From a virus, in the IMG/VR virus record IMGVR_UViG_3300035180_000994, positions 1 to 64,000 of that record: DNA of 64,000 nucleotides. One strand, given 5' to 3'. A program made the translations under genes and the position numbers. Each line of letters starts with the position of its first letter. Positions within the stretch are counted from its first letter, which is position 1. The notes under the pieces were generated by a model. The model did no database searches, was not told the DNA's origin, and saw nothing but the letters and a program-made list of their open reading frames with translations. Positions 6,407 through 62,628 of the stretch are shown here, in pieces.

Positions 6407-6416
6407 GATGATACCC
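6407..6416 (-). promoter_or_regulatory. GGGTATCATC element upstream of the 396-aa gene
   Basis: A perfect copy in minus-strand sense, ending 19 bases before the ATG at 6387 and followed by CTGGGAGGAG. TATCAT resembles a -10 hexamer. A TTGACC lies only 8 bases upstream of it, too close for a -35. Confidence 0.5.
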
Positions 6417-33975: not shown

Positions 33976-33996
33976 GGGCACTCTTCCTGAAAAGCA

Positions 33997-45227: not shown

Positions 45228-45269
45228 TTCCAAACCCTAGTAGGTGGACAAAAAGTGTCCGATGCACCC
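45228..45269 (-). repeat. Intergenic repeat family II, copy 3, with GGACA/TGTCC hairpin
   Basis: Minus-strand AGGGTGCATC, then GGACA-CTTTT-TGTCC, then CCTACTAGG. It follows the terminase stop and may end transcription weakly. Confidence 0.45.
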
Positions 45270-48200
45270 TAAAAGCGACCCCGGCGAGCCGTCATCCGTG
45301 GGGAGAGGGCAACGCCACCAGCCCGGACGGCGGCCATGCGCCCCACAGCCCGCCCACGTTCAGCGACCCGGAGCTGCGACATCGTGCTGATCTCAGGGTT
45401 TAAGCCCATGTCCCCGGGGCGAAGGCCGTCAGGCCCAATCTGGACCTGCTGCCCGGACAGGGCGAAGAACTTGTTGCCCTCCTCTGCCATCCACTTCTGA
45501 GCACGCCACGCGGCGAGGGCAGCGGCGTCATACATGTCGTCGTGGGCGTTCTTTTCCGTCGGGGCCTCGACTTTGATCTGGTGCTTGCCGACGTAATAGG
45601 CTTCGACTGTCCCCATCTCGTGGCGGAACTTCGGCACGTCGGGGAACCGGCAGATCCCCTGGTTGATGTAGCCCTGGAGGGCGTAGGCGGCCTCGGAGTT
45701 GATCGCGGCGGTCAGGTGGACCAGCTCGATGAAGTCCATCTGTCGCTGGTGGCAGAGCTGGATGAACATCGCGCCCGCGTATTGGTCGATGGCACCGTGG
45801 GCGCCGGGCAGCCACTGGTTCATGTCCCAGAACCAGTCCAGGATCTCGTTGATGTCCAGTTCCTTCACGTGCTCCCAATCACCCTCGCCGACCATCATCC
45901 GGTCCACATAGTCGTAGACCAGGAGGAGCTGACTATCCTGGCCCTGCTCCCAGTGGCAGATGGCGATGGCCGTGGCGTCGTGCTTCATTCCGAGGTCACA
46001 GCCCCAGAAGTATTTGATCCCGACGCGCCGGGGATCGAAGCCGTAGGCGTTAGGGCGCCCGGTGTCGAAGCACTCGTTGAGCTTCCCGATGGGGACGAAC
46101 GTGCCAGCGGACTCCAAGAACCGGCCACCGTGCTCGGCCTGCCACTTCACGGGGTCGCGCTTGAACTTGTTCTTCAGGTAGGACGCGGCGATCTCGGTCC
46201 CGGCCATCTCGGCGGTGGAGCACTGGTAGACGAAGAGGGAGGCGTCCTTGCCGTCAGCCATGCCTTCCTGCCAGAGGGCGTAGGTCTTACCGACCTTGGT
46301 CCACGGGGAGGTCACGGTGATCGTCAGGGAGTCCAGGTGCTCCTCACGGTCCTCCTTGTTGACGAAGCGGGCCGTGGCGGGCGTGGCCGCTTCGTAGACC
46401 TCGTCGGAGGAGGCCCCGGTCGCGGACCGGAAGTGGGCGAACTCGTCGAAGGCCAGGAAGTAGGAGGAGGGACCACGGGCGCTCCGCGTGGTGCAGGGCC
46501 AGGAGGCTACCTGGATGGAGGCTTCCACGTCGCGCCGGTGCCGGTCGGCCTCGGTGATGAACTGCATGGAGTCCACGCCGGGCTTGCCGTGGATGAATGG
46601 GCGGAAGAACTCCGAGCGGTTGACCGCCATCTTGATCTTGTCGTAGAGACGACCAGCGCCGTCCTCGTCCTGGGCCAGGAGGGTGAAGTCAATGGGGTCG
46701 CCGTCGGCCAGCCGGTAGAACTCATGGGGGTTGCGGACGTTCAAGAGCTGGCGGAGCTTCTCAGTCGCCAACGCCGAGATCAGCACGGAGTTGTGGGTGA
46801 CGTTGAAGTTCTTACCGAAGAGGAACAGTCCCTCGGGGTGGGCTACCGTGATACACCGAACCTCTTGTGCACCGATGGGCTCCACAGCAGTAATGAATCT
46901 ACGGCGCTGGGAAGGCTTCACGGTCTTGGGGAGGGCGGCGAGCTTTCGTTGAATCTGGAAGACGGGCGTGGGATCCGTCCACGTCACCCGCACCCGGTCG
47001 GCACACCGCTTCCCGTTCAGAGATGTCTGCCCCGTCGTGATGGTGGGCTTGAGGCCGAGGGAGGCCGCGAGGTGATAAACACCCTGGGACAACGCTGGGA
47101 GTTTACTGGAAAACTCACAACGGGAGCGGTGACACCCGCCGTCCGTGTCCATAAGTCCCTGGAGCAGGGCAAGGCGCTGTTCTCGGGAGGCCCATAGGTA
47201 GGACTCTGGGATGTGCTTGTTCTGGAGGAGGCCCATGGCCCGGAGGGCGGCCTTCACGGGATTTTTGTCTCCGGCGTTGACCCCCCAGGACCCCTTCTTG
47301 GCCCCAAGGACCCGTGAGGTCAAGTGGTAACTAGAGGCTTTGTTGACGGGTCCGGTCTTGGTCTCTTTCCGAAGCTGAAGGCCGTGGCTCTTAGCAAACC
47401 CTTCCAGGAATGTCACGACCTCGGGGTCCATGGTGGTAATCGAGGGGTGCCTTGCCGCCCCGTCCCCAAGCCAAAGGCCGAGGAAGTAGGGATCCAGGGG
47501 TAGTTCCTGTTCAGGGAGTTCTACGACCGCTGCCAGGGGGATGGAGTGGTTGGTCTCAAACTTCCCATCAGGGCGGGCGACGTGAAGTGTGGCCCTGATC
47601 TCCTCCGTGGTGCGGATCGCACCAGAGGTGGAGGCGGTGGAACACGATGCTGGGCGCCGGGCGAGCTGCGGGGAGATACGTCGGCTTCTGGCCTTGCGAT
47701 CTGCCTTGGTCTCCGTCCACCAGAGGTGGCCCCCGTGGGCTACCACGGAGGTCCCATCATCAAAAGCAACGCGATAGCCCTGATCCCGAAAGGGCTCATG
47801 GGCGTAGAGCACTTCGGTGGGTTGTCCGTCTGGCCCGAAGACGAAGTCCCCCGCTTTGAGATCGCGGTTGAGCACCCAACCCTTCGGTGTAGGGATAGGC
47901 TCGTCCATACCTAAGGCTTTTCCGCCTCGGCGCCCGGCTAGGATCTCCGCTTCGGAGAAGCCCTTGGAGGGCAGGTCCCGCCAGTCGGAGAAGTTGCAGC
48001 GGCCCTGGTCCTTCAGGTAGCGCAGGAACTCCCGCTCAGTGAACGTGTGGATGATGTTTTCGCGGAAGTCATCCCAGACGGGGACGAGCTGTTCCTTGTA
48101 GTCCATGGGGATGCCCGCGATGGCCTTGAACAACCACCGCTGGACGGGTAGGAGGTTGATCTTCGGACCCTGGGGAGAGGTCAGGAAGTCCAGGCCATTC

Positions 48201-48289
48201 ATCTGGCTCCGGACATCGGTGATCGCCGAATCGACGATGGCGCCAAACGAACTGGCGCCACCCCTATTGTGCTTGCGGCTTACGACCAT
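45269..48289 (-). CDS. terL: Large terminase subunit containing an in-frame intein
   Basis: 1006-residue precursor; the mature protein would be ~630 residues. Walker A AGRRGGK (118-124) is cut off from SVLISALATEK (501-511); joining them restores a terminase P-loop. Walker B is YFLAFDEFAHF. RNase H-like nuclease motifs are WGCDLGMKHDATAIAI, GAIDQYAGAM and NAHDDMYDAAALA. The enzyme cuts and packages phage DNA through the portal. Residues 125-500 form the intein (separate entry). It follows the 919-residue gene by six bases. Confidence 0.88.
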   Translation of the reverse strand: MVVSRKHNRGGASSFGAIVDSAITDVRSQMNGLDFLTSPQGPKINLLPVQRWLFKAIAGIPMDYKEQLVPVWDDFRENIIHTFTEREFLRYLKDQGRCNFSDWRDLPSKGFSEAEILAGRRGGKALGMDEPIPTPKGWVLNRDLKAGDFVFGPDGQPTEVLYAHEPFRDQGYRVAFDDGTSVVAHGGHLWWTETKADRKARSRRISPQLARRPASCSTASTSGAIRTTEEIRATLHVARPDGKFETNHSIPLAAVVELPEQELPLDPYFLGLWLGDGAARHPSITTMDPEVVTFLEGFAKSHGLQLRKETKTGPVNKASSYHLTSRVLGAKKGSWGVNAGDKNPVKAALRAMGLLQNKHIPESYLWASREQRLALLQGLMDTDGGCHRSRCEFSSKLPALSQGVYHLAASLGLKPTITTGQTSLNGKRCADRVRVTWTDPTPVFQIQRKLAALPKTVKPSQRRRFITAVEPIGAQEVRCITVAHPEGLFLFGKNFNVTHNSVLISALATEKLRQLLNVRNPHEFYRLADGDPIDFTLLAQDEDGAGRLYDKIKMAVNRSEFFRPFIHGKPGVDSMQFITEADRHRRDVEASIQVASWPCTTRSARGPSSYFLAFDEFAHFRSATGASSDEVYEAATPATARFVNKEDREEHLDSLTITVTSPWTKVGKTYALWQEGMADGKDASLFVYQCSTAEMAGTEIAASYLKNKFKRDPVKWQAEHGGRFLESAGTFVPIGKLNECFDTGRPNAYGFDPRRVGIKYFWGCDLGMKHDATAIAICHWEQGQDSQLLLVYDYVDRMMVGEGDWEHVKELDINEILDWFWDMNQWLPGAHGAIDQYAGAMFIQLCHQRQMDFIELVHLTAAINSEAAYALQGYINQGICRFPDVPKFRHEMGTVEAYYVGKHQIKVEAPTEKNAHDDMYDAAALAAWRAQKWMAEEGNKFFALSGQQVQIGPDGLRPGDMGLNPEISTMSQLRVAERGRAVGRMAAVRAGGVALSPRMTARRGRF
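46790..47917 (-). mobile_element. Intein with LAGLIDADG homing endonuclease, class 3 features
   Basis: Intein residues 125-500 of the terminase precursor (376 aa). The N-terminal residue is Ala, not Cys/Ser, beginning ALGMDEPIPTPKGW. Block B is VVAHGGHLWWTE (Trp), block F EVRCITVAHPEGLF (Cys479) and block G FNVTHN followed by Ser501 (Thr498). This W-C-T set with no N-terminal nucleophile defines class 3 inteins. Two dodecapeptides, FLGLWLGDGAA (Asp276) and LLQGLMDTDGG (Asp383), are LAGLIDADG nuclease motifs. Insertion at the P-loop Lys/Ser is a typical conserved site. Splicing is inferred. Confidence 0.85.
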
Positions 48290-48295
48290 GTGCCT

Positions 48296-51055
48296 CTACT
48301 TGGTGCCCTTGGTGCCCGTCACCACTTTGACAACCAGGGTAGTCCCGTCGAGGCTCTGGGCGCGAACGAAAACTTCGTAGTTGAAGCCCCCGCTGCCCTT
48401 GGCGTTGTTGCACCAGACGGCTGCCTGGGCGATGGCGCCGTCCACCAGCATCTTCTTCTGGTCGTCGGTGAGCTTGTTCATCGCGGTCTGGAACTGGGCC
48501 ACGGCGGCTTCCTGGGCCTGTGCCGTCGCCTGGGGTCCACCAGTCACCCGGATGGTCTCGGCGAGGTCCAGGTGGTCCTCGAAGGGTGCGGAGAGGGCGA
48601 GAGGCTTGTTCGTCACCTGGAAGACCGCGATGAGCTGGGCGGCGTAGCCCCCGAGCACACCCTTCAGGAACTTGTCCACGGCGAGGAAGGTCTCGTCCTG
48701 GGGGACGGCGTCTTCCTTCGAGGGCTCGTTGTAGTTGCCGGTCTCGGGTGTCGCGGCGGTCTCGTCGGCATGAGCCTGGGGATGCTCCTCTTCGGCGGGG
48801 GCGGCCATGTCGAGGCCCTGGAAGAACGCGAGGGCCCCGTCAGCCTTCTTGCGGCGGGCCTGCTTGTTCTCGTCCGAAGAGGGCGGGGGGACCATGGAGA
48901 GCGCGTCGCCGACGGACAGGCCGCCAGCCTCGGCACCGGCGCCAGCGGCGGCAGCACCTTCAGCGGCGGCAGCACCTTCAGCGGCAGCCGCGCCACCCTC
49001 AAGGGCAGCAGCACCGGCCTCGGCGATGGGGATCAGCGCGGGGAGGAAGGCTTCCTTGCCGGTCCCGGCGGCCTTGGGCCGCTTGAAGGTCAGGGCGGCG
49101 CTGGGGATATCGGCGTGCGGGGCGTAGAAGTTGCGGGAGAACTCAGGGCCGTAGAAGGACATCTCCTGCCTGAGGGGCACACCACCTGCGTTCGAGTCCA
49201 GGCCCTGGTTCAGGCCAGTGGCGTTGGGGTCCTGGGCCACACCCTTACCGGGGGCGCCGAAGGGGTTGATCAGGTTGGGATCTTCCTGCTGGGAGATGAA
49301 GGGGCTGTCCACCACGTCATGCTGGAGTTCGGGCATGAACTGCTCCAGGACGGTCCCGGGGTTCCACCAGTTGCCCGCCACCTTCTTCTCGGGGCAGGTG
49401 CAGGAGCCGTCGCACTCGTGTCCGTCTTCGCAGGTCTTGGCGATCACCAGGGCGGCGGTCAGCATGTTCCGGCGGACATCATCGGTCGCGGCGGTCTTCG
49501 ACCCGTAGCGGGCCGCCTGGGAGGCTTCCTTGACCCATTCCCCGCCGAAGGTGATGCCGTCCACCATGGCGGCGGCCCATACGGACTTGGTCTTCGGGTC
49601 GGTGATGACGTAGCTGAGCTTGGGAGGATTCTTGTCCTCGGCGGCGAGGTCGCGGTTCAGGATCTGGTATTGTCCCTGGCCGTAGGGCTTGATCAGCCCC
49701 TGCTCTTTCATGAAGAGCACGGCGGGCTTGAGCTTGTCGGTGACCTTCTTCAGCTCGGACTTCAGGCCCTCTTCGGAGAGGACGCGGCCACCCCAGTGCT
49801 GGACGAAGGCGTTGACGGCCTGGACGGTCCCCTGGGAGAACGAGGCACCGGCGTCGAAGAGCCCGGCCTCCTTGGTCTGCATGGCGGTGGCGGCTTCGGC
49901 ACCCTCACCGGGGGCGGTGTCACCCTCGTTCATCTGGGGTGCGAGGCCGGTCAGGGGCACGTTGTTGCCCTCGTCCTCGGCAGCAGCGGTGACAGGGGAG
50001 GGGCCGTCCACGACCTGTGGGGTCCGGTCGCTGACGTTGCCAGCCTCACCCAGTTCGAGGTTCTCACCCCGCTGGCGGTGCTCGTCGAAGTCGGTGTCAC
50101 CGTGGGTCTTCCCGTCGGTGTTGCCCTCGGCGGAGGCCATGGTGAAGATCGGGGTCGTGGCGGGGGCGGTGATCTCAGCGGCCTGGGCCGGGGTGGCGGT
50201 CGAGCCCGCCTGGGGGGCGAAGGTCGAGGCAGGGGTGCACTCGGCAGCCGTGCGCTTGACGTTCTGCTGGACTTCCTTCTCGATGGCCTGGAACATACCC
50301 AGCTCGGCATCGCTCAGGTCCTCGTGCTCCAGCTTGGGGATGTCGGCGCCGGTCAGGCGGATGACCCTGCGGCCCAGGGAGGCGGACTTCGCGGAGGAGC
50401 CTTCCTCAGCGGCGAGGTCCAGGCCCTTGGCGAACTCGGGGTAGTCGGGCTCTTCGCTCTTCTCGATCCGGTAGATGTGTTGGGTGCTCGGCATGATCTT
50501 CGTCAGCGGGGCGCTGTCGGGATCCACGGCGCGGAGCTGGTCGAACACGGAGGAGAGGCTGGGGTCGAAGGGGCTGGCGTAGGCCACATCCCGCAGGTTG
50601 GCCAGGGCGGTGTCCTCATTGTAGACGAAGGACTGGTAGCCGCTGGGGTGGGCCCACGAGGGGGCGAAGACGATGAGGGGAGCGTAGTCGCCCTTCTCGT
50701 TCTTGAACGCGACCTCCTTGAAAGCCTGGAGGGTCTCGCGGCTCAGCTCGTCGCTGTCCACCAGGGCACCCATCTGGAACTCGACCATGCCCTCAGATGT
50801 CGTGTGCTTCCGGAGGTTCACGTCGAGGAGGATGTGGGGGAAGTCCTCGGGCTTGTTGCAGACTGAGACGGGGACGACGTAGACATCCCCGACTTCGATG
50901 TCGTGGCGGTAGCCCTTGCGGTGGAGGGCCACGCGCTGGACTTTCGACTGGGACTTCGCGTCCTTGACTGCCGTCTTCAGGGCGTCAAAGGCGGCGGAGA
51001 GCACCTGATCGTTGGCGCCGAAGACCTGATAGGAGCGGAGGATCGCTTGGGACAT
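48296..51055 (-). CDS. Probable virion protein with Ala-rich segment (919 aa)
   Basis: ATG at 51055 with AAGGAT gives MSQAILRSYQVFGANDQVLS; a longer upstream frame overlaps the previous gene. The N-terminal ~270 residues look globular, for example VGDVYVVPVSVCNKPEDFPH. A Cys-rich patch CEDGHECDGSCTCPEKK lies mid-protein, followed by FISQQEDPNLINPFG and QEMSFYGPEFSRNFYAP. A GGAAALEGGAAAAEGAAAAE stretch and a structured C-terminus (DKFLKGVLGGYAAQLIAVFQ) follow. Large size and position before terminase suggest a virion component. No family recognised. Confidence 0.6.
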   Translation of the reverse strand: MSQAILRSYQVFGANDQVLSAAFDALKTAVKDAKSQSKVQRVALHRKGYRHDIEVGDVYVVPVSVCNKPEDFPHILLDVNLRKHTTSEGMVEFQMGALVDSDELSRETLQAFKEVAFKNEKGDYAPLIVFAPSWAHPSGYQSFVYNEDTALANLRDVAYASPFDPSLSSVFDQLRAVDPDSAPLTKIMPSTQHIYRIEKSEEPDYPEFAKGLDLAAEEGSSAKSASLGRRVIRLTGADIPKLEHEDLSDAELGMFQAIEKEVQQNVKRTAAECTPASTFAPQAGSTATPAQAAEITAPATTPIFTMASAEGNTDGKTHGDTDFDEHRQRGENLELGEAGNVSDRTPQVVDGPSPVTAAAEDEGNNVPLTGLAPQMNEGDTAPGEGAEAATAMQTKEAGLFDAGASFSQGTVQAVNAFVQHWGGRVLSEEGLKSELKKVTDKLKPAVLFMKEQGLIKPYGQGQYQILNRDLAAEDKNPPKLSYVITDPKTKSVWAAAMVDGITFGGEWVKEASQAARYGSKTAATDDVRRNMLTAALVIAKTCEDGHECDGSCTCPEKKVAGNWWNPGTVLEQFMPELQHDVVDSPFISQQEDPNLINPFGAPGKGVAQDPNATGLNQGLDSNAGGVPLRQEMSFYGPEFSRNFYAPHADIPSAALTFKRPKAAGTGKEAFLPALIPIAEAGAAALEGGAAAAEGAAAAEGAAAAGAGAEAGGLSVGDALSMVPPPSSDENKQARRKKADGALAFFQGLDMAAPAEEEHPQAHADETAATPETGNYNEPSKEDAVPQDETFLAVDKFLKGVLGGYAAQLIAVFQVTNKPLALSAPFEDHLDLAETIRVTGGPQATAQAQEAAVAQFQTAMNKLTDDQKKMLVDGAIAQAAVWCNNAKGSGGFNYEVFVRAQSLDGTTLVVKVVTGTKGTK

Positions 51056-51059
51056 GGGT

Positions 51060-51617
51060 TCATCCTTCAGGAAGCAGAGGGGCGGAAGGGGTAGGGGTGA
51101 CTCCAAAAGAGAGTGCGGAATCAGCCGCAACCCTCTCGGTTTCCTTCCTCAGCTCGGGCTCACGGGCGATGAGGAGGTCCCGGAACACGCGGAGGCAGTG
51201 GTTGATGCTGTCTTCGGGCTGCCCGGACTGCTTCAGGGAGGTCCTGAACAGCAGGACCAGCTCGCCGAGGACGAACTTGAACTTGGGGCCGTCGAAGTTG
51301 AGGAAGTCCTTCTTCGAGATCGTTTCCCCCTCCAGGAGCGTCTTCGATAGCTCGCGGAGGGCCTTCACGCGCTCGTTCACCGACCGGGGGTTAAAGTCGA
51401 TCTTCGGGTCGGTCAGGGCGTAGGCGATCTCCAAGGAGATCAGCTTGTTCACCTGCTCCAGGTCGGTGGCCTCGGGGTCATCCAGGAGGGCGATGATCTC
51501 ATCCATGCGGGTGGGGTGGGGCTTGCCGATGTTGTCGTCCGCAGGCGGCACGAACACCCCGGGGGTGCCGGAGCCCCCCAGATCAATCTCCCGCTCTCCC
51601 GCGATACCCTGGCCCAT
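51060..51617 (-). CDS. Helical hypothetical protein upstream of the 919-aa gene (185 aa)
   Basis: MGQGIAGEREIDLGGSGTPG, then a helical body: TRMDEIIALLDDPEATDLEQ, NERVKALRELSKTLLEGETI, FVLGELVLLFRTSLKQSGQP. GGAGG site. It lies two genes before the large terminase, where a small terminase could sit, but no DNA-binding HTH is evident. Function unknown. Confidence 0.6.
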   Translation of the reverse strand: MGQGIAGEREIDLGGSGTPGVFVPPADDNIGKPHPTRMDEIIALLDDPEATDLEQVNKLISLEIAYALTDPKIDFNPRSVNERVKALRELSKTLLEGETISKKDFLNFDGPKFKFVLGELVLLFRTSLKQSGQPEDSINHCLRVFRDLLIAREPELRKETERVAADSALSFGVTPTPSAPLLPEG

Positions 51618-51630
51618 GTAATGCCTCCAG

Positions 51631-52953
51631 CTAGAACTGTAGCGCAGCGATGCTCGGCATCTCTACATCAAGTAGCTGGCGGTCCTGGGCGAAGTCGATG
51701 GTCAGCTCGGGGGCCCGGAGTTCCAGGCCGTCCATGGTGGCCACGCCGTCGGCAGCGGCGACGCTGGCGGTCTTCGCCTGCTTCTCCATGCCGGGGTAGG
51801 ACAGCAGGGTCCCACCGGTGAAGCCGCAGTGCATCCCGGCCCGGAAGGAGCAGGAGGAGCACTTGTCCTTGCCGAGGATGGTCTCCGAGGCGGTGAGGCG
51901 GCGCTTGAGGATCGAGCAGTCCACGGCGGCGAGGTTGATCCGCGCACCCGTCTTCTTCAGGCTGTCGAGGTATTCCCGCACTACCTTCTGGGTCTTGGCG
52001 GAACCGTAAGCCTTCTTGGAGGCCACGTAGACATCGTTCAGGGTCTGGCCGCCTTCGATGCTGGCGGTGACGGTCTTGGGGGTGAAGGACGTGGCGTTCT
52101 CACGGGCCTTCTGGGCGTCCCAGGCGGCCACGCGGGAGACCCCGGCGGTCGTCAGGGTGGCGTCGCGCTCTTCGGACCGGGCGATGACGTTCACGGTGTG
52201 GCCGGGGCGGGCGGTGGACTCACCGTTGTGCCGGGCGACGAGGGAGGCCCTCTTCATCTGGGAACCAGCCAGCCGGGCGACGATGCCCTTGAGGTCCTTC
52301 TCGGAGGACACGATGGGCAGGCCGTAGGTGGCGCACTTGGAGCCGCCCTCCAGGTCGGACTTGCAGTTCTCACAGCCGTCGCAGGCGGCGATGCGCTTGA
52401 CGCTCGCGGCCTTGATCACGCCGTTGGCCTTGATGTGTCGCATGGAGGCCGTGCAGGACTTCTGGTTGAAGTGGTTGGGCTCCAGGTAGGCGTAGCCGAG
52501 GAGGCCCGCCTGATCCTTGAGGAAGCCGTCGGACTCCGTGCGGTCGAACATCTGCTGCTCGGCCAGCTTGTTCAGGTAGGCGGTGACCTGTTTGGGGGTC
52601 TTGCCCAGGTGGAGCAGGGCCCGGATGCGGATCTTCACGTCGGCGGAGGCCATCATTGGCTTGCCCAGACGCTCTTCGTCCACCTTCTCGCCCGACGACT
52701 GCTTGAGCACGTCGTTCATCAGGCTGTCCTCGGTCGTGAAGGGACGCCCGCCGTTCTGCTGCCAGTCCTGCTCGGCAGCGACGATGCCGGTGCCGGGGTT
52801 GGCCGCGTTGTGTTCGCCGCCGGGGGCCAGCTCATCGAGTAGGCCGTCGTCCTCCGTCTCGGACAGGGTCTTGAAGTCCTGGCCGCGCTGGATGGCGCCG
52901 TCGGTGGAGGGGCGGAAGTCGGAGAGGAGCTGGTCAATGAGCTGAGACGACAT
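51631..52953 (-). CDS. Cys-rich probable virion protein (440 aa)
   Basis: ATG at 52953 (MSSQLIDQLLSDFRPSTDGA) lies one base after the previous stop; an in-frame ATG further upstream lacks a site. Cys clusters: ACDGCENCKSDLEGGSKC and CSILKRRLTASETILGKDKC, then SSCSFRAGMHCGF. These spacings could hold Fe-S or zinc. Helical parts include IRIRALLHLGKTPKQVTAYL. Position in the block between the sigma-like protein and terminase suggests a structural role. No family recognised. Confidence 0.6.
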   Translation of the reverse strand: MSSQLIDQLLSDFRPSTDGAIQRGQDFKTLSETEDDGLLDELAPGGEHNAANPGTGIVAAEQDWQQNGGRPFTTEDSLMNDVLKQSSGEKVDEERLGKPMMASADVKIRIRALLHLGKTPKQVTAYLNKLAEQQMFDRTESDGFLKDQAGLLGYAYLEPNHFNQKSCTASMRHIKANGVIKAASVKRIAACDGCENCKSDLEGGSKCATYGLPIVSSEKDLKGIVARLAGSQMKRASLVARHNGESTARPGHTVNVIARSEERDATLTTAGVSRVAAWDAQKARENATSFTPKTVTASIEGGQTLNDVYVASKKAYGSAKTQKVVREYLDSLKKTGARINLAAVDCSILKRRLTASETILGKDKCSSCSFRAGMHCGFTGGTLLSYPGMEKQAKTASVAAADGVATMDGLELRAPELTIDFAQDRQLLDVEMPSIAALQF

Positions 52954-52954
52954 G

Positions 52955-53311
52955 TTAGAACTCCAAGTCGGCGAGGATGCTGTGAAGGGTGCGTTCGGGG
53001 TCGTCGATGTCAGCGGCGGCGAGCTTCTCCCCGTCATCGACGGAGGAATCAGCGCCGGTCAGGCGGACGAGCTTGCCGTTACGGACGGCCCAGAAGTCAC
53101 GGGTCGCAGGCTGCTCGTAGACGTTGCCAGCCACACGGGTGATCGAGATCCCCATATCGTAGGCCATCTTCATCACGGCGGTTTCGTCCGCGATGGGTGT
53201 GGCGGCTGCGGTCTTGCCCAGCCCCAGGCGGCCCAGGGCTTCACCTAGAAGGCCCCCGTCACGCGCCCTCGGGGTGCCAAGCATGTGCTGCTGTGCATGG
53301 ATCAGCGGCAT
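52955..53311 (-). CDS. Hypothetical protein (118 aa)
   Basis: MPLIHAQQHMLGTPRARDGG with GGGAGG, then VMKMAYDMGISITRVAGNVY and FWAVRNGKLVRLTGADSSVD: a beta-hairpin pattern (FWAVRNGKLVRL) with helices. The stop is one base from the next start. Begins after an AT-rich intergenic region. No family recognised. Confidence 0.6.
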   Translation of the reverse strand: MPLIHAQQHMLGTPRARDGGLLGEALGRLGLGKTAAATPIADETAVMKMAYDMGISITRVAGNVYEQPATRDFWAVRNGKLVRLTGADSSVDDGEKLAAADIDDPERTLHSILADLEF

Positions 53312-53422: not shown

Positions 53423-54160
53423 TCAGTAGGAGGCCCGGGAGACGAGGACGTGCTCGTCGAACATCGGGTCCGTGACGTTGATCCTGAACGCGCCGACGAC
53501 GTTGGGGTCGGCCTTGTGGAGGTGGCTGTGCTTCTGGATCTTGCGGGCAGAGAACCCCGTGCCGGTGATCGAAGCCTTGTCGATCAGGCCGTGGATGTAG
53601 GCCCCGAAGGCGACGTGCTCTTCGTGCTGGTCGCCCATCAGGACGTTCACGGCCTTGGTCAGGGCCCGGCGCACGTCGGGGCGGTGGAGGTGGAGGTTGT
53701 CGGCCACGGCGGTGAAGGAGCGCCGGTGGCGATACTCGTCCACGATGGTCGAGGTCCGCACCCCGTCGATCAACTGGTTCACGTCATGGAGGACCAGAAT
53801 CTCGTCGAGGACGGTGACGGGTGGGTGGCCGTCGTGCATGGCCGCGACCCCGAGCTTCTTCAGCGCCATCCGGATTCGGAAGGAGCACAACGTCTGGGTC
53901 GAGCGGTAGAGCTTGGCGAGGCACCACTGGGGCTTCGACAGTAGGTAGTAGCTCATGAGTAGTTCCTGGTCCTCAGGGTTGAGGTGCCTGAGGAACGGGA
54001 GGAACTGCCCGAAGTTGTCCCGGATGCTCTCGCCGACGGAGTCCTTGGCGAGGTCGCTTTGGGTCTCCAGGGAGATGGTCGCGTCCGCGAAGTCCTCCGC
54101 GCCGACCTTCATGGAACGAGCTGCGGTGATCGACTCGAAGTAGGGCGTCATCTCTGCCAA
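53423..54160 (-). CDS. Putative regulator with two helix-turn-helix-like regions (245 aa)
   Basis: A TTG start at 54160 (MAEMTPYFESITAARSMKVG) has GGGAG seven bases away. HLNPEDQELLMSYYLLSKPQ followed by WCLAKLYRSTQTLCSFRIRM has the order of sigma-70 region 4 (LxxxDxxLLxxYY...T-x2-TxxSFRIRxALKKLG). A second segment, EYRHRRSFTAVADNLHLHRP with DVRRAL, is a classical HTH pattern. No sigma region 2 is present here. It likely binds DNA and may act with the sigma-like protein just upstream. Promoter TTGCCT-17-TATACT precedes it. Confidence 0.5.
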   Translation of the reverse strand: MAEMTPYFESITAARSMKVGAEDFADATISLETQSDLAKDSVGESIRDNFGQFLPFLRHLNPEDQELLMSYYLLSKPQWCLAKLYRSTQTLCSFRIRMALKKLGVAAMHDGHPPVTVLDEILVLHDVNQLIDGVRTSTIVDEYRHRRSFTAVADNLHLHRPDVRRALTKAVNVLMGDQHEEHVAFGAYIHGLIDKASITGTGFSARKIQKHSHLHKADPNVVGAFRINVTDPMFDEHVLVSRASY

Positions 54161-54210: not shown

Positions 54211-54239
54211 AGTATAGGTATTTATCCCCTTCCAGGCAA
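54211..54239 (-). promoter_or_regulatory. Sigma-70-type promoter for the HTH regulator
   Basis: Minus-strand TTGCCT (-35), 17-base spacer, TATACT (-10); this is the best classical promoter in the window. Transcription would start near 54204, about 40 bases before the TTG codon at 54160. Confidence 0.7.
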
Positions 54240-54244
54240 AAAGA

Positions 54245-54264
54245 ATGGGACCCGAAGGTCCCAT
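54245..54264 (-). terminator. Rho-independent terminator with UUCG loop
   Basis: Minus-strand ATGGGACC-TTCG-GGTCCCAT (8 bp) followed by TCTTTTTG. It comes after the stop of the 940-residue gene (54328) and before the regulator's promoter. Confidence 0.9.
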
Positions 54265-54327: not shown

Positions 54328-57150
54328 TTATTCGTCCTTCTTCTCGTCCTTCTTCTCGTCCTTGGGCTGTTCGCCGTGGGGGCCAGCATCGGGGTTGTCA
54401 GCGGGCTCTTCGACGCCGGGGGCTTCCTCGACGGCTTCCTCCTCCACATCCACGGGGGCCGCGTCGGGGAGGGTGATGCCGAGGTTGTCGGCCAGGGCTT
54501 CCGTCTGGGCCATCACCTTGTCCATGGCGAGGTAGAACTCACCGAGGGCTTCCTCCAACTGGGCAGGCTCCTCAGCGGCGAGGTGCTTCAGGCCCGCGAA
54601 CTTCTCCTCGCCCTCGACCTCGGCGACCTCCATGGGGGCGCCCTCCTTGACCTCGGCACCCTCGACGGGGGCCACGATGCCCAGGTTCTCCTGGAGGATC
54701 GTCAGGTTGTTGAGCTGTTCGGAGAGTTGAGACTTCAGGCCGTCGATGGCTTCAGCGATGGCTTCGGGGTTCTCGGCGGCGATGCGCTTCAGCGCGGCGA
54801 ACTTGGCAGACACGGTGGCCTCCTTGAGAGATGACGTGGTCATGTGGTCGGGATCAGGCGCGAAATCGGTCTGCTCCGCTGGGGTGAGGTTGAGTTCCCC
54901 GCCGAGGGAGCGGGCTTGCCGGGGCATACCGGCGTCAATACGAGCAGAGTACTGTTCATCGGTCTCGTCGGGGCGCTTCTGGTGCCACTCATGGGAGCGT
55001 TGCTGCATCTTCCACAGGGGCTCTTTGCCTTCGGACCGGCCCTTGGCATCCATCACGTCCTGGACGGTCAGGTAGGCGGCTGCCTTGGCCCTCTTGGAGC
55101 CGTAACGGGCGGGCTGGCCACTCAGGAGTCCCCCGGGGGTCTTATCCCCGGGGGTCCACTCCTGCTTCTCTTCGTTCCAGACCGGCTTGGGCATCAGAGG
55201 TCCCCAGGCGGCACCAGGGTCCTCACACTCGTCGCACGCGGCGTTGACCGCGATCTGGCGCTTGGCCCCCACGATGTGGAAGCCCTCGGGGCTGTCGTCT
55301 TCAGCGGGGTAGCCCGATGCCGTACGGAAGGCTTCCTCAGCGGCGTCCTTGCCGGGGTAGTCCTTCGAGGCGATCTTCCTCGCGGCCTTGCGTCCATGGG
55401 CACCCTCGGTGAGGGAGGCGGCGACTTCGATGGTGCCCTGCTCAGGGTCCTGGATGGTCACCTTCGTGTCCATCAGGCGGGCGATGTCCATCTTCACGAC
55501 GTTCCGCCAGTCAGCCTTCTGGTCGAACGGGATCTGGAAGTACTCGATGGCGTTTTCCCATACGATGGACCGCAGACGGCGGATTACCTTCTCCAGGAGG
55601 TCGTGGTCCTGCTCCAACACGTCGCCGCGCATCATCGGGATCACGAACGTCCCGACGGCCTGCCGGATGCGGCGCTCGGGGAGGGACTTGTCCTGGCCCC
55701 AGTCACCGACCTCGATCTTGTAGCTCCCGGCGCCGGGGGTGGTCCTCAGCTTGGGGGAGTAGAAGGAGATGTCCATGAAGCGGGGGTTGGCGCGGTTGCC
55801 ACCCAGGCGAAGGTAGAGGATGGACTGCTCGACGACCTTCGGGGCGGCTTCTTTCGTCATGAGGGGGATGTAGGTGGCCAGCTTAGCCATGAAGTCCGAG
55901 GCTGAGGCGCAAGCGGAGATGGGGGCGGTAGATCCGATCTTGGGGGGAGGCTGCTGCATCTCCTTGGCTTTCGTGCCCACCTGCTCCGTGTCCTCCATGG
56001 GCTCTGGGATCGGTTCGGGGGCTGGTGTCGGTTCAGGGGCTGGTGTGCCAACCGCATCGGTGCCTGCTTGTTCAGTGACACGCTGGCGGAGCTTGTTGAT
56101 CAGCTTGGTGAGGTGGCTGTTTGGGGCCTTGCTCGTCCGCGCAAAGTTCTGCAACTCCTCGGCAACGATGGGGAGGATGCGGCGCATGTTCGAGTAGGAC
56201 GTGCCAGTCTCCACGGGCCAGCGGGCCTTGACCTCGGCGCCGTCATGCGCGGTGATGATCAGCCGCAGGAGCTGGATGCACGTCTTGGAGAGGTTACCGC
56301 CCCGGGCGCCCTGGAGGTATTGCTCGAAGGCATCCAGGAACTGGCTGAGGGAGCGGATCGCAGACTCAGATTGGGCCTCAGCCTCCTGGTCCACGTAGTC
56401 CCCCGGGAGCACATCAGCGAGGGTATCCCCCCATCCTTCGCCGTTCACGGGTTCGTCGAGGGTGGAGCCGGAGTCATACTGGCGACCTCGGGCCTTGTCG
56501 CCCGCTTCGGACTTGCCGGTGGCCTGCCACTTGAAGAGCTGGGTGAGGTAGGCGGTGAGCCGCTTCTCCAGCGGGGTCTCCTTGCCGTCCCGGGACGTGC
56601 CCTTCGTGGGGTCGAACCGCTCCAGGACGTGGCGACCCAGGAACAGGGTGACCAGGGCGTCTTGGATGGCGTCCTTGCGCTCTTCCTCGTTCTTCACGCC
56701 AGCGGACATGAAGATGTTGTTCAGCCGAGCGTCCCAGTCAACCGTGGGGTCGATGGGGAGGTCGGCGCTGGTGATGAACTCGTTGATGATGGGACCGAAC
56801 TGGCCGCCCCACGCGAAGACAGCCACGGCTGCCAGCTTCTTTGCCCAAACAGGGACGAAGTCCTGCACGGCGTCCTTGACGACCATCTGAGCCAGCTTCC
56901 CCCGGAGGGTCTGACCGTTGAGGACGAAAAAATCACCCTGTCTCAGCATGGTCTTGGCGACGAACCCTACCCCCGACACCGGCTGGACGTAGGAGCCCAG
57001 CTTGGTCCGGAGAATGGACGCGGTCGTGTTGGAATCCAGACCCGTGGCCGCCCTGTCGATCAAGGCAGCCAGCCGAGCCGCCGGGGGCAGCTCGTGCGGG
57101 GAAGGTGCGGCAGGGGCAACCGTAAGGCTGCCCACGAGCTTCTTGGACAT
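54328..57150 (-). CDS. Sigma-70-like N-terminal domain fused to a large virion-type protein (940 aa)
   Basis: Residues ~156-212 (EERKDAIQDALVTLFLGRHV, ERFDPTKGTSRDG, LEKRLTAYLTQLFKWQATGK) resemble sigma region 2. Residues ~228-256 contain STLDEPVNGEGWGDTLADVL, the region 3 linker pattern (SLDxPVxxxGxTTLGDLLPD). Residues ~262-336 (ESAIRSLSQFLDAFEQYL, SYSNMRRILPIVAEELQNF) suit region 4. After it come IYLRLGGNRANPRFMDISFY, a Cys pair ACDECED and two helical repeats at ~783-825 and ~850-892 (KFAALKRIAAENPEAIAEAI). The tail is KDEKKDEKKDE. Either a sigma factor packaged in virions or a sigma-derived structural protein. Confidence 0.55.
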   Translation of the reverse strand: MSKKLVGSLTVAPAAPSPHELPPAARLAALIDRAATGLDSNTTASILRTKLGSYVQPVSGVGFVAKTMLRQGDFFVLNGQTLRGKLAQMVVKDAVQDFVPVWAKKLAAVAVFAWGGQFGPIINEFITSADLPIDPTVDWDARLNNIFMSAGVKNEEERKDAIQDALVTLFLGRHVLERFDPTKGTSRDGKETPLEKRLTAYLTQLFKWQATGKSEAGDKARGRQYDSGSTLDEPVNGEGWGDTLADVLPGDYVDQEAEAQSESAIRSLSQFLDAFEQYLQGARGGNLSKTCIQLLRLIITAHDGAEVKARWPVETGTSYSNMRRILPIVAEELQNFARTSKAPNSHLTKLINKLRQRVTEQAGTDAVGTPAPEPTPAPEPIPEPMEDTEQVGTKAKEMQQPPPKIGSTAPISACASASDFMAKLATYIPLMTKEAAPKVVEQSILYLRLGGNRANPRFMDISFYSPKLRTTPGAGSYKIEVGDWGQDKSLPERRIRQAVGTFVIPMMRGDVLEQDHDLLEKVIRRLRSIVWENAIEYFQIPFDQKADWRNVVKMDIARLMDTKVTIQDPEQGTIEVAASLTEGAHGRKAARKIASKDYPGKDAAEEAFRTASGYPAEDDSPEGFHIVGAKRQIAVNAACDECEDPGAAWGPLMPKPVWNEEKQEWTPGDKTPGGLLSGQPARYGSKRAKAAAYLTVQDVMDAKGRSEGKEPLWKMQQRSHEWHQKRPDETDEQYSARIDAGMPRQARSLGGELNLTPAEQTDFAPDPDHMTTSSLKEATVSAKFAALKRIAAENPEAIAEAIDGLKSQLSEQLNNLTILQENLGIVAPVEGAEVKEGAPMEVAEVEGEEKFAGLKHLAAEEPAQLEEALGEFYLAMDKVMAQTEALADNLGITLPDAAPVDVEEEAVEEAPGVEEPADNPDAGPHGEQPKDEKKDEKKDE

Positions 57151-57847: not shown

Positions 57848-58468
57848 CTAGAGTGCTGCTTCAGTGACGAAAAAGCCGACCTCCTTGACCCCGGTGGCGA
57901 TGTGCAGGCGCTCGATGCCGATGGTGAGCCGGGACTTGATCGGGTAGGCTTTCACGTCGTCGGGGTGGATACCCAACACGGGCTTGTCCACGTAGTAGGC
58001 GGGGTCCAGGGAGTTCGAGTAGAGGCGCTGGCGGATCGGCGCGACGAGGAACTCGGGGTCCGTGGACATCAGGAGATAGATCCGGCCCCCGTCATGGCTG
58101 ACGAGGAAGAACCAGCCGTTCTGGTGCACGGCGTGTAGGTAGATGGCCTTGTTCCCGATACCGATGGGTTTGACCTCGGTGGCTGGGTCCCCGAAGTAGC
58201 GGTAGATCACGAGCTGCACATCCCCCGAGGTCATCAGGGCGTAGATGTAGGCGAAGCCGTTGTCGTTGACGAACCCGTGGGCGCTCCGAACGTCCTGCAA
58301 GAGGGTGATGACCTGCTCGGACTCGTAAGCCCGGACCCGCAGCTCATGGGTGGCCGCCGTGACGTAGAACACGACAGCCCGAGACCCCATGCGGAGCAAC
58401 ACCCTGCTGGCGGCCTGTGCTTCAGTCACCAGCGGGGTGTATTTGTGAGGGTCAAGTCCAGTAGGCAT
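57848..58468 (-). CDS. Structural protein, beta-rich (206 aa)
   Basis: MPTGLDPHKYTPLVTEAQAA, then AVVFYVTAATHELRVRAYES, SGDVQLVIYRYFGDPATEVK and GWFFLVSHDGGRIYLLMSTD: repeated strand pairs as in a propeller or fibre base. Its ATG overlaps the 1386-residue stop as TAATG. Probably a partner of that fibre. Confidence 0.6.
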   Translation of the reverse strand: MPTGLDPHKYTPLVTEAQAASRVLLRMGSRAVVFYVTAATHELRVRAYESEQVITLLQDVRSAHGFVNDNGFAYIYALMTSGDVQLVIYRYFGDPATEVKPIGIGNKAIYLHAVHQNGWFFLVSHDGGRIYLLMSTDPEFLVAPIRQRLYSNSLDPAYYVDKPVLGIHPDDVKAYPIKSRLTIGIERLHIATGVKEVGFFVTEAAL

Positions 58469-61400
58469 TAGGCGCGACGACCCCAGGCGTATTTGACGTG
58501 GAGCGTGGTCCCGGTGGTCCCGTCGGGGAGCTTAACGAAGCCGTAGTAGGGGTGCATGATGAACTTGCCCGCGTTGGGCTTGCCGTCGAAGTTGAACCAG
58601 CCCTGGTAGGCCAGATACTGGCTGATGTATTGGGGCGACCACAGGACAGGCGAGGTCTCATCCACCCAGATCGCGGTGGAGTCGGTGGAGACGCCCATGC
58701 ACTCGGGGTCCCAGGCACCGCGCTCGCGGGTGTTGTTCGGGGCCGCCGAGGATCCCAGGCGCAGGCTGTCCATGACGGCCTGGGAGGCGTAATCCCATAG
58801 CTGCACGGGGGGGAGGTGGCGGGTGGCATCGTCCCACCACGCGCCGTTCTTGGTCGTGATCCGAAGCTGCTGGACATTCTGCTGCCGGTCGAAGCAGTAG
58901 AAGGCGCCGTTGTGGGCCCGGAACTTCGGGGTGATCTCAGTGAACCCAGCGGTGTCCGGGGAGGCCACGGCGTTGACCTCGAACTTCAGGCCCTGGACGT
59001 AGTGGGTGCCTGCCATCCCGTTCTGGTTGTCCTCGGAAGCGAGCAGCAGGTCGGCGAAGCTGGCAACCCCCAAGGGGACATCCCAGAGGTTGAAGGAGCT
59101 GTAACGTGGGAAGCCCCAACCCTCCGCCCCGAAAAGGATGCGGTAGTGGCGGTAGCCGGTGGTGTTCGAGGAGATGTCCCGGATAGCGTGGGCCACCCGG
59201 TGATCCATCCCCGTCGGCCACGTGAAGCCGTTGACGGTCTCGATGGTCGTCCAGTTCGTCGGGTTGGTCGTGGCGTCGTTCGACCCCTGGAACACCCAGT
59301 TGGTAAAGATACGGCTATCCGAGTAACCAAGGCGGCCAAAGTCATACGCCTTGATGATCGGGGCGTTGCCCACACCGTAGTCGATACGGACAGAGACCGC
59401 CGCGTTGGTCCACTGTAGCCCAGTGAACTCAGCAGAGGGGGTGGTGATCGAACCCGCAACGATCAGCGGGGCGACGGTGGGGACCTTGGAGAGATCGTAG
59501 GTGACGACGGCGGGGGCGTCGTTGTTCAGGCCCCCACTGGCGACCGGCCACGAGATCGTGTGGTTGTCCCCGGCGCCGGTGATGTTCTGGGCGATACCCG
59601 TGGGGCCGCTGACGGTGATCGGGGCCTCGACTCCGATGAGAACTCGGCGGTGGCCCAGGGTGTTTAGGGCTGCGATGCTCTTGGTCTCGGTGTTGTGGAA
59701 GGTCCGACCGGCGAACATCGTCCAGTCCCAACGGGTGCGCCGGGCGAACTTCACCTGCCCGTAGGCGACGTTGACGGTGTGGAACTCCCCGGGCTGGAAG
59801 GTCGTGTTCGTGCTCGGCCCGAAGGAGAAGACCATGCCGTGCATGACCGGCACGGGAGTGTCGGCGGTAGCCGAGAGGGTGTAGGGGTTGGCCGCCGCGT
59901 CCGCGAAGCTCTTGGCAACCTTCCAGGCCCCACCCGACCACTTCCAGTAGCGGGGGAGGTAGTAGGTGCCGTGGTTGTAGCGATCCGGTGACAAGTGTGC
60001 CTCGGGGAACCCGGGCTGGTAGTAGTTGGCCCCACCTGCCAGGAAGGTCATCTGGTTGTCGGCGTAGTGCACGGGGTAGGTGTATTCCCGTAGGTAGCCG
60101 TCTCCGTAGCTATTGGAGTTGGCGGTCATCCACGTGGAGTAAACGCCATCCTTGGCGATGTTCGTCGTGGCACCCTCGCTGTAACCGTTGAAGCCCTGGA
60201 GGATGAACTGCTCCGTGCCGTCCCATACGAAATCGGGATGGGCGAGGGCGATGGGTGTCGAACCGTTGCCCCAGTAGGAGCCGTTGACGTAGGTCTGCAT
60301 CACGCAGGCCACGGAGGCATCCTGGAAGTTCTTCAGGATGGTCACGGCGGGGGTGTTGGCGTTCATCCCTGCCGAGTAGATGGAATGGGGCTGGCCGAAG
60401 GACACGTCCTTGACCGCAGTGGAGTCCAGGGTTCCGCTCACGTCCACGAGGAACGTCTTGGTCATCCTCCAACCAGCCTGGAGGAGGAGCTTGTTCGCCG
60501 AAACTTCCCCGAAGAACCCGCAGTTCGCCAGGGCTTCATACCCACTCCCGAACGCACCGGAGTTGAGCCCTGCCGTGGTGACCATGGAGGTGTTCCACAC
60601 GTTGCCTGTGGGGTTGTAGACCAGGACCTGATAGGCCATGGCACCGGTGCCAGCCGCCGCGTTCAGGATGCCTGCGTCGAAGTTATCCACACCGTTGATG
60701 ACCTGGAAGATCGTGGAGTGTGCAACATTCGGGCAGTTAGGGACGGTTGTCTGAGTGGCCTGGATGTCCCCGGTGAACCCGCCCCAGCGGCTGCGGGGAA
60801 AGGTTCCGATGACGCTACCGTGGCTGTAGCCCACGTAGTTGTTACCACCGGCGCTCCCGGAGGAGACGTGCATGAAGAAGTAGTAGTCGTAGTCTGGATC
60901 GAAGGGCATGTTGATCCAGTCCGTCGTTTTCATCCCCTCCGTCCAGACCGTCGCGGACTCGACGGTGACCTGCACGCTGTCGGTGAAGTGGGTCCCCACG
61001 GGGGAGCCCTTGGGCACACGCTTCATCGTCGCGGAGATGTTTTGAGCGTAGCTCACGTTGATCTTGAGCTTGAACCGGGTGCAGGACGGGTTGTGGAAGT
61101 CCCGGCCATCCAAGACAGTCACCAGGGTCTCCTGGGCCGTGGCGTTCAGGCTGCAAGACGGGATACTGCCATACTCCTCTAGGACCAACGGGGTGATCAG
61201 GGTGGTCGCGGTGTTCTCAACAGCGGCGGCGAGGCGCCCATCGGCCAGGGCGATCAGCTCCGTGATCGACCGGCTGTTGTGCCGGGCAGCGAGGGGAGAG
61301 TCCGACCGGGCGCCCCAGGTGTTGTTGGAGATCGTGTAGGGTTTGATCCCCACGACACCCGTGGTGGTATTCGCCTGGGAGTTGCCTTCTGAAAAGGTCC

Positions 61401-62628
61401 CGACCAGGGCGTAGAGCTTGGTCCCCTGCTTGACCAGGGCGCCGTAACGCTCCTCACCGGTGACGGCAGTGGCCGCCGCCTTCGGAAGGACCTGACCACC
61501 GGAGACAGAGAAGTCCACGAGGGCCAGATCACCGGACTCCGAGAGGGCCCATATGTTCATGCCGTCCACGGCGATACCCGCGATGCGTTTGTAGGTAGAT
61601 GCGGCCCAGGCCGTAATGGCGAAGTCATAGAGGTAGATGGGGCGCCAGCTCATCTTCGTCGAGAAGATCATGAGCAGGGAGCCCCAGATGCTCGCGTAGT
61701 ATTCCGGGTTGATCATGACGTTCGCGGTCTGGCGGTAGCGGGGATCACTGATGCGGAGAGGTGGGAGCTGGGAGACTGCCCAGGCGCTCTCCAAGGAGAC
61801 GAAGGTCGCCGTGCTGCTGTTGTAGACGATGACCCAGTCGCTCCCGGGGGTGTTGCCCATGAGCCAGCCAGTAGCGATGGGCACCTTGGTGTCCGCGAGG
61901 GGCACGTCGGGGAAGAACGCCGAGGGGTAGTAGGCGTTGGACGCATGGGTGGAGTCAGCGGCGCGGGGCTGGGTCATGCGCCAGGAGGGGCGCTGCTCGA
62001 TCATGAACGAGACGGCGCCGGTGGAGAGGGCCCCGCCGTTGACGATGTGGGCGACGTAGTAGGTGGGGTGGAGGTAGGCGCTCCGGTTCCAGGCGCTACC
62101 CGTGGTGAGCAGGCGCGAGGCGCCATCGGAGGGCAGGGAGGTCGCGTCACGGAACTGGGTCTTGGCCTGATCCGTCGAAGGTATGGGCCACGCGGGGGCG
62201 CCGTGGCCGTAGGGGGTCTCGTAGGAGACGGCGTTGTCGTCCACCTGATCGAAAACGACCGAGGTAGCCCAGTACCCAGAGACCATCGAACCGATGATGC
62301 CATAGCGGGAGACCTCGTCGTTGAAGCTGACGATGCGGGAGTGGAAGCTGCCCCGGGCGCGGGCGGCCCAGTTGTATTCATAGCCGTGGGGCTGCCACCA
62401 CGTGCCAGCGTTGCGGCTGGCCTCGGACTGGTAACCGGAATTGATCCCCAGGGTGTAGCCGTTCCACATCCCCATCGGGGCCGTGTAGTTGGAGAGGTTC
62501 CGGTTGATGTTGTCATTGACGAGGGGAAGCTCGGAGGCGATGATACCCGAGTTGATGGGGGTGTTGGCGTCCCCGTCGTAGATGAGGTTCGTGTTGAGGG
62601 TGAAGGCTTGCCAGGGATTGGCGGACAT
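58468..62628 (-). CDS. Giant tail fibre/adhesin protein (1386 aa)
   Basis: MSANPWQAFTLNTNLIYDGD opens; a beta-rich body with AAVENTATTLITPLVLEEYG, DYDYYFFMHVSSGSAGGNNY (carbohydrate-module-like) and many Gly/Asn turns. Near ~1095-1190, NDAPAVVTYDLSKVPTVAPL leads to FTNWVFQGSNDATTNPTNWT, TGYRHYRILFGAEGWGFPRY, a discoidin/F5-8C-like order. The end (YISQYLAYQGWFNFDGKPNA, HPYYGFVKLPDG) is compact. Likely host-receptor binding. TAATG coupling with the 197-residue gene. Confidence 0.7.
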   Translation of the reverse strand: MSANPWQAFTLNTNLIYDGDANTPINSGIIASELPLVNDNINRNLSNYTAPMGMWNGYTLGINSGYQSEASRNAGTWWQPHGYEYNWAARARGSFHSRIVSFNDEVSRYGIIGSMVSGYWATSVVFDQVDDNAVSYETPYGHGAPAWPIPSTDQAKTQFRDATSLPSDGASRLLTTGSAWNRSAYLHPTYYVAHIVNGGALSTGAVSFMIEQRPSWRMTQPRAADSTHASNAYYPSAFFPDVPLADTKVPIATGWLMGNTPGSDWVIVYNSSTATFVSLESAWAVSQLPPLRISDPRYRQTANVMINPEYYASIWGSLLMIFSTKMSWRPIYLYDFAITAWAASTYKRIAGIAVDGMNIWALSESGDLALVDFSVSGGQVLPKAAATAVTGEERYGALVKQGTKLYALVGTFSEGNSQANTTTGVVGIKPYTISNNTWGARSDSPLAARHNSRSITELIALADGRLAAAVENTATTLITPLVLEEYGSIPSCSLNATAQETLVTVLDGRDFHNPSCTRFKLKINVSYAQNISATMKRVPKGSPVGTHFTDSVQVTVESATVWTEGMKTTDWINMPFDPDYDYYFFMHVSSGSAGGNNYVGYSHGSVIGTFPRSRWGGFTGDIQATQTTVPNCPNVAHSTIFQVINGVDNFDAGILNAAAGTGAMAYQVLVYNPTGNVWNTSMVTTAGLNSGAFGSGYEALANCGFFGEVSANKLLLQAGWRMTKTFLVDVSGTLDSTAVKDVSFGQPHSIYSAGMNANTPAVTILKNFQDASVACVMQTYVNGSYWGNGSTPIALAHPDFVWDGTEQFILQGFNGYSEGATTNIAKDGVYSTWMTANSNSYGDGYLREYTYPVHYADNQMTFLAGGANYYQPGFPEAHLSPDRYNHGTYYLPRYWKWSGGAWKVAKSFADAAANPYTLSATADTPVPVMHGMVFSFGPSTNTTFQPGEFHTVNVAYGQVKFARRTRWDWTMFAGRTFHNTETKSIAALNTLGHRRVLIGVEAPITVSGPTGIAQNITGAGDNHTISWPVASGGLNNDAPAVVTYDLSKVPTVAPLIVAGSITTPSAEFTGLQWTNAAVSVRIDYGVGNAPIIKAYDFGRLGYSDSRIFTNWVFQGSNDATTNPTNWTTIETVNGFTWPTGMDHRVAHAIRDISSNTTGYRHYRILFGAEGWGFPRYSSFNLWDVPLGVASFADLLLASEDNQNGMAGTHYVQGLKFEVNAVASPDTAGFTEITPKFRAHNGAFYCFDRQQNVQQLRITTKNGAWWDDATRHLPPVQLWDYASQAVMDSLRLGSSAAPNNTRERGAWDPECMGVSTDSTAIWVDETSPVLWSPQYISQYLAYQGWFNFDGKPNAGKFIMHPYYGFVKLPDGTTGTTLHVKYAWGRRA

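Follow-up and report, generated by a model that had tools for sequence, protein, structure and literature searches.

A clade-specific family of modular phage proteins with a probable, diverged sigma-like core and a sigma-region-4-like neighbour

The presence of patterns resembling sigma regions 2, 3 and 4 within a protein of 940 residues, encoded among structural genes of the virus record IMGVR_UViG_3300035180_000994, raises the question of whether a large phage protein may act in transcription initiation or whether a helical fold of this kind serves another purpose. The window, that is, the whole stretch of 64,000 nucleotides that was analysed, covers 64.0 of the 68.4 kb of the viral record. 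The open reading frame runs exactly from 57150 to 54328 on the minus strand (54328..57150, 940 aa); it is real, and it is the orthologue of gp345 of Tunturiibacter phage Tunturi_5. The initial annotation had described it as a sigma-70-like module fused to a virion-type protein, lying next to structural genes and continuing with a Cys-knuckle and duplicated helical segments. Its surroundings are as described: a large tail-like ORF with a weak tail match (58468-62628) adjoins it, and the block ends in a terminase. Likewise, the duplicated helical segments are borne out: a helical unit repeated in tandem towards the C-terminal end (residues ~776-926) is genuine and has homologues. The Cys-knuckle reading fails because the protein, which has four cysteines in all, contains a single CxxC (residues 639-642), and a zinc knuckle was rejected on this count.

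The layout of the protein follows from comparison with its relatives. The N-terminal segment (residues 1-104; 56839..57150, minus strand, as are all coordinates of this protein) has no match in relatives at the thresholds used. The part common to the family spans residues ~105-350 of the window protein (56101..56838 for residues 105-350) and comprises a region-2-like helical core (residues ~139-223; 56482..56736), delineated by hhalign to ECF sigma2 and by AlphaFold, and a second helical domain with an HTH-like end (residues ~262-338; 56137..56367) that is sigma4-like by a hint from the fold only. The middle region (residues 391-775; 54826..55980), which holds the single CxxC, is specific to the 940-aa protein and found no relative among the fetched loci, and the C-terminal tandem helical module (residues 776-926; 54373..54825) occurs in many relatives as a separate adjoining gene.

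Used as a single query, the protein gave nothing useful in Pfam, PHROGs or PDB, and single-sequence scans of viral contigs were equally unproductive. Among 50,697 phage records the sole relative was Tunturi_5 gp345 (XOB77788.1, E = 5e-5), from a phage of 308,711 bp whose host belongs to the Acidobacteriota, and the same single record was returned when other family members were used as probes. The neighbouring gene, homologous to gp346 of that phage, is conserved enough to be used for fishing out relatives; its search led to 24 viral contigs, and profiles of the sigma-like region gave 39 and 37 matches, many of them sharing contigs. The family now counts 38 distinct ORFs, a few of which are near-identical or cut by contig ends, on contigs of up to 463 kb. 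All come from uncultured phage contigs or from the isolate Tunturi_5, of a giant soil-phage group, and the bacterial genome contigs searched yielded no relative of the family.

The gene order around the 940-aa protein is conserved to a large extent. Six genes, gp345, gp346, gp347, gp348, gp349 and gp350, followed by the terminase, are collinear between the window and Tunturi_5, with identities of 45% for gp346 over its length, 35% for gp348, 33% for gp349 and 45% for the terminase; gp350 is annotated as DarB-like. In the window, the homologues of gp347 to gp350 and the terminase large subunit occupy 45269..53311 (minus strand). Across the family, the order sigma-like gene, C-terminal module, gp346, gp347, gp348, gp349, gp350 and terminase recurs, whole or in part, in most lineages with a long enough locus, L063 and L097 being among the exceptions. 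A terminator-like hairpin (ATGGGACC TTCG GGTCCCAT then TCTTTTT; 54238..54264, minus strand) follows the 940-aa ORF, and hairpins stand at the equivalent place in several relatives; as this one lies between the sigma-like gene and the gp346 homologue, the two may belong to separate transcription units. It is also of note that the terminase ORF (45269-48289, minus strand) shows an apparent intein-like insertion of an extra ~350 residues, homing-endonuclease-like by eye, which splits the terminase match, and that a portal match (phrog_16240, E = 1.7e-21) is located at 31420-33981 (minus strand), apart from the terminase block and next to a DNA polymerase ORF.

The claim of a fusion holds for the 940-aa ORF itself and is not sustained as a fixed trait. 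In one clade (L014-L018, L020, L022, L023) the sigma-like region is a free-standing gene of 301 aa, and the next gene encodes the C-terminal two-repeat helical module of ~160 aa; in other lineages both are fused into proteins of 544 to 1395 aa, while in still others the C-terminal module is separate and the sigma-like protein itself reaches 2109 aa. Fusion is thus one state of a modular family. Tunturi_5 gp345 occupies the same place in the conserved block and likewise combines a sigma-like region with the C-terminal module, but it is 667 aa long with another middle region. Further domains appear here and there: an ADP-ribosyltransferase of the ART-PolyVal type lies above cut-off in one member (L012:7240-9324, E = 3.9e-14; none in the window protein by Pfam search), a BRCT domain occurs in L097:9779-13873 (E = 3e-10), DMP19-like domains stand near cut-off in L036 and L044, and several homologues are rich in CxxC pairs, up to 21. 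Most family members have an acidic pI. In the best reading, the variable domains and the helical repeat at the C-terminus are additions of polyvalent-protein type.

How sigma-like is the conserved region? None of 26 family members matches a Pfam sigma model, PF04542 and PF04545 are absent from the window's record, the PHROGs sigma family is touched by one of the 26 (E = 0.055), and a profile search of the PDB with the family gave nothing useful. We also compared the family with sigma profiles built from E. coli RpoD, RpoS, RpoH, FliA, RpoE and FecI together with sigma genes of other genomes, for which the positive control, ECF against larger sigmas, gave 99.2%. Aligned over the whole domain by hhalign, the family matched sigma factors at E = 0.015 and 3% probability with the correct region-2 register; column shuffles reached 0.11 at best, yet genuine, unrelated families at those loci reached 0.009, so this comparison alone is no evidence. 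Shuffles of 15-column blocks were dropped as a null, single helices staying intact in them and being able to exceed the real score. Taken alone, domain A (residues ~139-223) matched ECF sigma2 at E = 7.9e-4 in the correct register, and its score of 22.1 was the first of 103, the 102 control windows, taken from other families encoded at these loci, reaching 17.1 at most; the result is weakened by the fact that the split into domains was tried only after the whole-domain test had failed. Domain B gave no signal against sigma4 (E = 0.15), and the helix that would serve for recognition shows poor conservation and only a mildly basic character. Of the three sigma regions initially placed at residues ~156-336, region 2 has a hint in the profile, region 3 is weak and region 4 is without sequence signal. 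The proposed region 3 motif STLDEPVNGEGWGDTLADVL does not hold up as more than weak evidence, because it is poorly conserved and falls in the linker that AlphaFold leaves disordered (pLDDT 28-43). The most conserved motif of the family is LPxDxxxxW, and we know of no such motif in sigma factors.

For residues 100-361 of the window protein (25 aligned sequences, the row of one public phage record being left out), AlphaFold returned two well-predicted helical domains joined by a disordered linker (pLDDT 73), and for the stand-alone relative L016 the model attained a pLDDT of 81 overall and ~93 in both cores. Neither model reached significance in Foldseek against the PDB, the E-values of L016 being all above 1. 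Thermus sigmaA nonetheless took rank 1 for L016 (E > 1), sigma70-family proteins made up 15 of the 44 chains listed (all E > 1), and the sigmaA region 4 chimera 7kug_B (TMt 0.54) had the top probability of the list, 0.57. Since RpoD-like entries number 87 among 177,635 distinct PDB sequences, sigma chains are markedly enriched in that list, although the hits are mutually related and hence not independent. The initial annotation had left its sigma reading to be judged by profile search and structure prediction, and the outcome is divided: single-sequence profiles were negative, and both the domain-level sigma2 comparison and the top of the Foldseek list, the latter at E > 1, speak for it. Taken together, we regard a diverged sigma-like module in the family as fairly probable. 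The predicted pair of helical domains with a flexible linker and the region-2 register recall the arrangement of ECF-type sigma-70 factors (sigma2, linker, sigma4); unlike these, the family lies beyond curated recognition, shows no sigma4 sequence signal in domain B, carries the additional conserved LPxDxxxxW segment and has other modules attached to it or encoded next to it.

The sigma-region-4 signal is stronger in the next gene downstream than in the 940-aa protein. The gp346-family gene (53423..54160, minus strand) encodes two units resembling the HTH of sigma region 4 or of antitermination protein Q. Sigma70_r4_2 matches five of 13 members (best E = 2.5e-5) and Phage_antitermQ 11 of 13 (best E = 1.1e-4), all under the curated cut-offs, and the hhalign comparison of a gp346-family window with ECF sigma4 (E = 7.6e-5) is the highest of all windows. 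In Tunturi_5 gp346 is labelled 'exonuclease'; two tandem sigma4/antitermQ-like HTH units were found instead. Because the closeness of the two genes is conserved, we infer that the gp346-family product is a candidate partner of the sigma-like protein. Split sigma systems exist in phages, namely gp55/gp33 of T4 and gp34/gp33 of SPO1. By description these resemble the present pair, in which sigma2-like and sigma4-like functions would likewise sit on separate genes. What emerges is a modular protein family specific to this phage clade, whose core is probably a diverged sigma-like one and whose neighbour is sigma4-like.

As to function, our main reading, to which we give a probability of about 0.48, is that a diverged sigma-70-like module binds the host RNA polymerase and, with the gp346-family product, steers it to phage promoters. 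The conserved core would consist of region-2-like helices, a flexible linker and a second HTH-like domain; the protein carrying it would bind the host polymerase, and together with its sigma-region-4-like neighbour it might direct the enzyme to phage promoters, while the C-terminal repeat and variable domains would be polyvalent-type attachments to this core. An RNA polymerase beta-prime domain was not found in 11 records, the window's own included, and a canonical sigma gene occurs in only one of 11 relatives; both absences are provisional, as several records are fragments. The 456-kb record of L076 (G004) also encodes a canonical ECF-like sigma (L100:1393-2022, PF04542, E = 1e-20). Jumbo phages that lack a polymerase of their own are described as recruiting the host enzyme through sigma factors of phage origin and orthologues of gp33 (PMC7824862). 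The simplest mechanism may be that the family and gp346 recruit the host polymerase in this clade, and a stand-alone sigma-like gene near a second sigma-like gene may therefore serve the takeover of host transcription.

A candidate promoter word also emerged from the window. The sequence GGTATCAT is strongly enriched, occurring in 13 copies, all on the minus strand, where 0.5 are expected; ten of them have their first base (minus strand) at 6415, 9052, 14742, 25892, 27000, 28006, 38427, 40593, 42174 and 43129. About ten sites stand a short way ahead of start codons; in nine of ten the box is preceded by a T at a distance of five bases, and there is no -35 box. Judged from these patterns, GGTATCAT is probably a single-box phage promoter of the window's replication half; it might be used by a phage-specific initiation factor, a host sigma could use it as well, and nothing links it to the 940-aa protein. 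In the L014, L037/L054 and L063 groups, words of GTATTA or GGTATTA type are enriched ahead of genes and possibly represent the same promoter type.

Whether the protein travels in the virion is a further matter. Packaging and delivery at infection appear plausible from the terminase and tail-like ORF block, the DarB-like gene, the homologue with ART-PolyVal and the giant modular forms, yet we hold this idea only tentatively. DarA and DarB of P1 are described as protecting the transferred DNA (PMC5512222). The polyvalent proteins of Iyer et al. 2017 (PMC5512222) resemble the family in being large and modular with variable domains, in the ART-PolyVal of one homologue and in the DarB-like neighbour, but the text of that paper does not contain the word 'sigma', and packaging of the sigma-like family is only putative. 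N4, whose early transcription is driven by an injected protein, the virion RNA polymerase (PMC5512222), offers the same general idea, with the difference that it packages a polymerase whereas the sigma-like protein would help the polymerase of the host to initiate. A literature search for packaged sigma factors gave nothing usable. Tunturi_5 gp345 owes its label of 'virion structural protein' to a structure-based, Phold-based annotation pipeline and not to proteomics, and the label was rejected as proof of a virion location.

Three other explanations have to be weighed. The family might have no kinship with sigma factors at all and be an unknown helical phage protein whose generic amphipathic helices imitate them, as one could suppose from Foldseek E-values that never fall below 1, from the failure of all 26 members to match a curated Pfam sigma family and from a whole-domain score that ranks amid unrelated families; the first place of domain A among the 103 windows, in the right register, and the dominance of sigma chains in the list obtained with the better model, that of L016, make this somewhat unlikely. 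Unlikely, too, in our view is that a sigma-like or merely helical fold is used structurally, in an internal virion or injected protein for assembly, DNA packing or binding of host proteins, polymerase recruitment having been lost. The location in the terminase and tail block would suit such a role, and so would the acidic pI of most members and the weakly conserved HTH surface. The family has also recombined with segments rich in CxxC and with ADP-ribosyltransferase and BRCT domains, giving proteins of up to 2109 aa, which one would not expect of a sigma factor. Against this reading stand the two-domain core, kept free-standing in one clade, and the sigma4-like gene that stays nearby.

The remaining alternative retains the division of labour between a sigma2-like protein and an HTH protein of its own gene, and places it inside the cell: the two would form an unpackaged late transcription factor pair after the manner of T4 gp55/gp33, made after infection, with module fusion being incidental. 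The phage sigma factors and gp33 orthologues described in polymerase-less jumbo groups (PMC7824862) are in keeping with it, but domains of polyvalent type and lengths that reach 2109 aa would be odd for such a factor and the T4 late promoter TATAAATA has no occurrence in the window, so that we consider it rather unlikely. The recruitment of host polymerase by the sigma-like module and the gp346-family product thus remains our preferred reading. It can be extended to a two-gene, virion-delivered system in which a sigma2-like part on a packaged polyvalent protein and its sigma4-like neighbour would direct the host polymerase, as soon as infection begins, to single-box promoters of the GGTATCAT type; such a system, if true, would be the bacterial-virus counterpart of packaged early transcription factors, and of all the proposals made here it is the one we believe in least.

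How transcription starts in large phages in which no RNA polymerase can be recognised needs an explanation for most of this uncultured group, and two conserved neighbouring genes with diverged sigma2- and sigma4-like parts now provide a testable candidate. Both the phage Tunturi_5 and the Tunturiibacter that it infects are cultured (PMC11924767), which makes the question accessible to experiment. Finally, the sigma-like core, joined to polyvalent-type modules and parted from them time and again, would exemplify how a transcription factor becomes joined to the arsenal of injected proteins.
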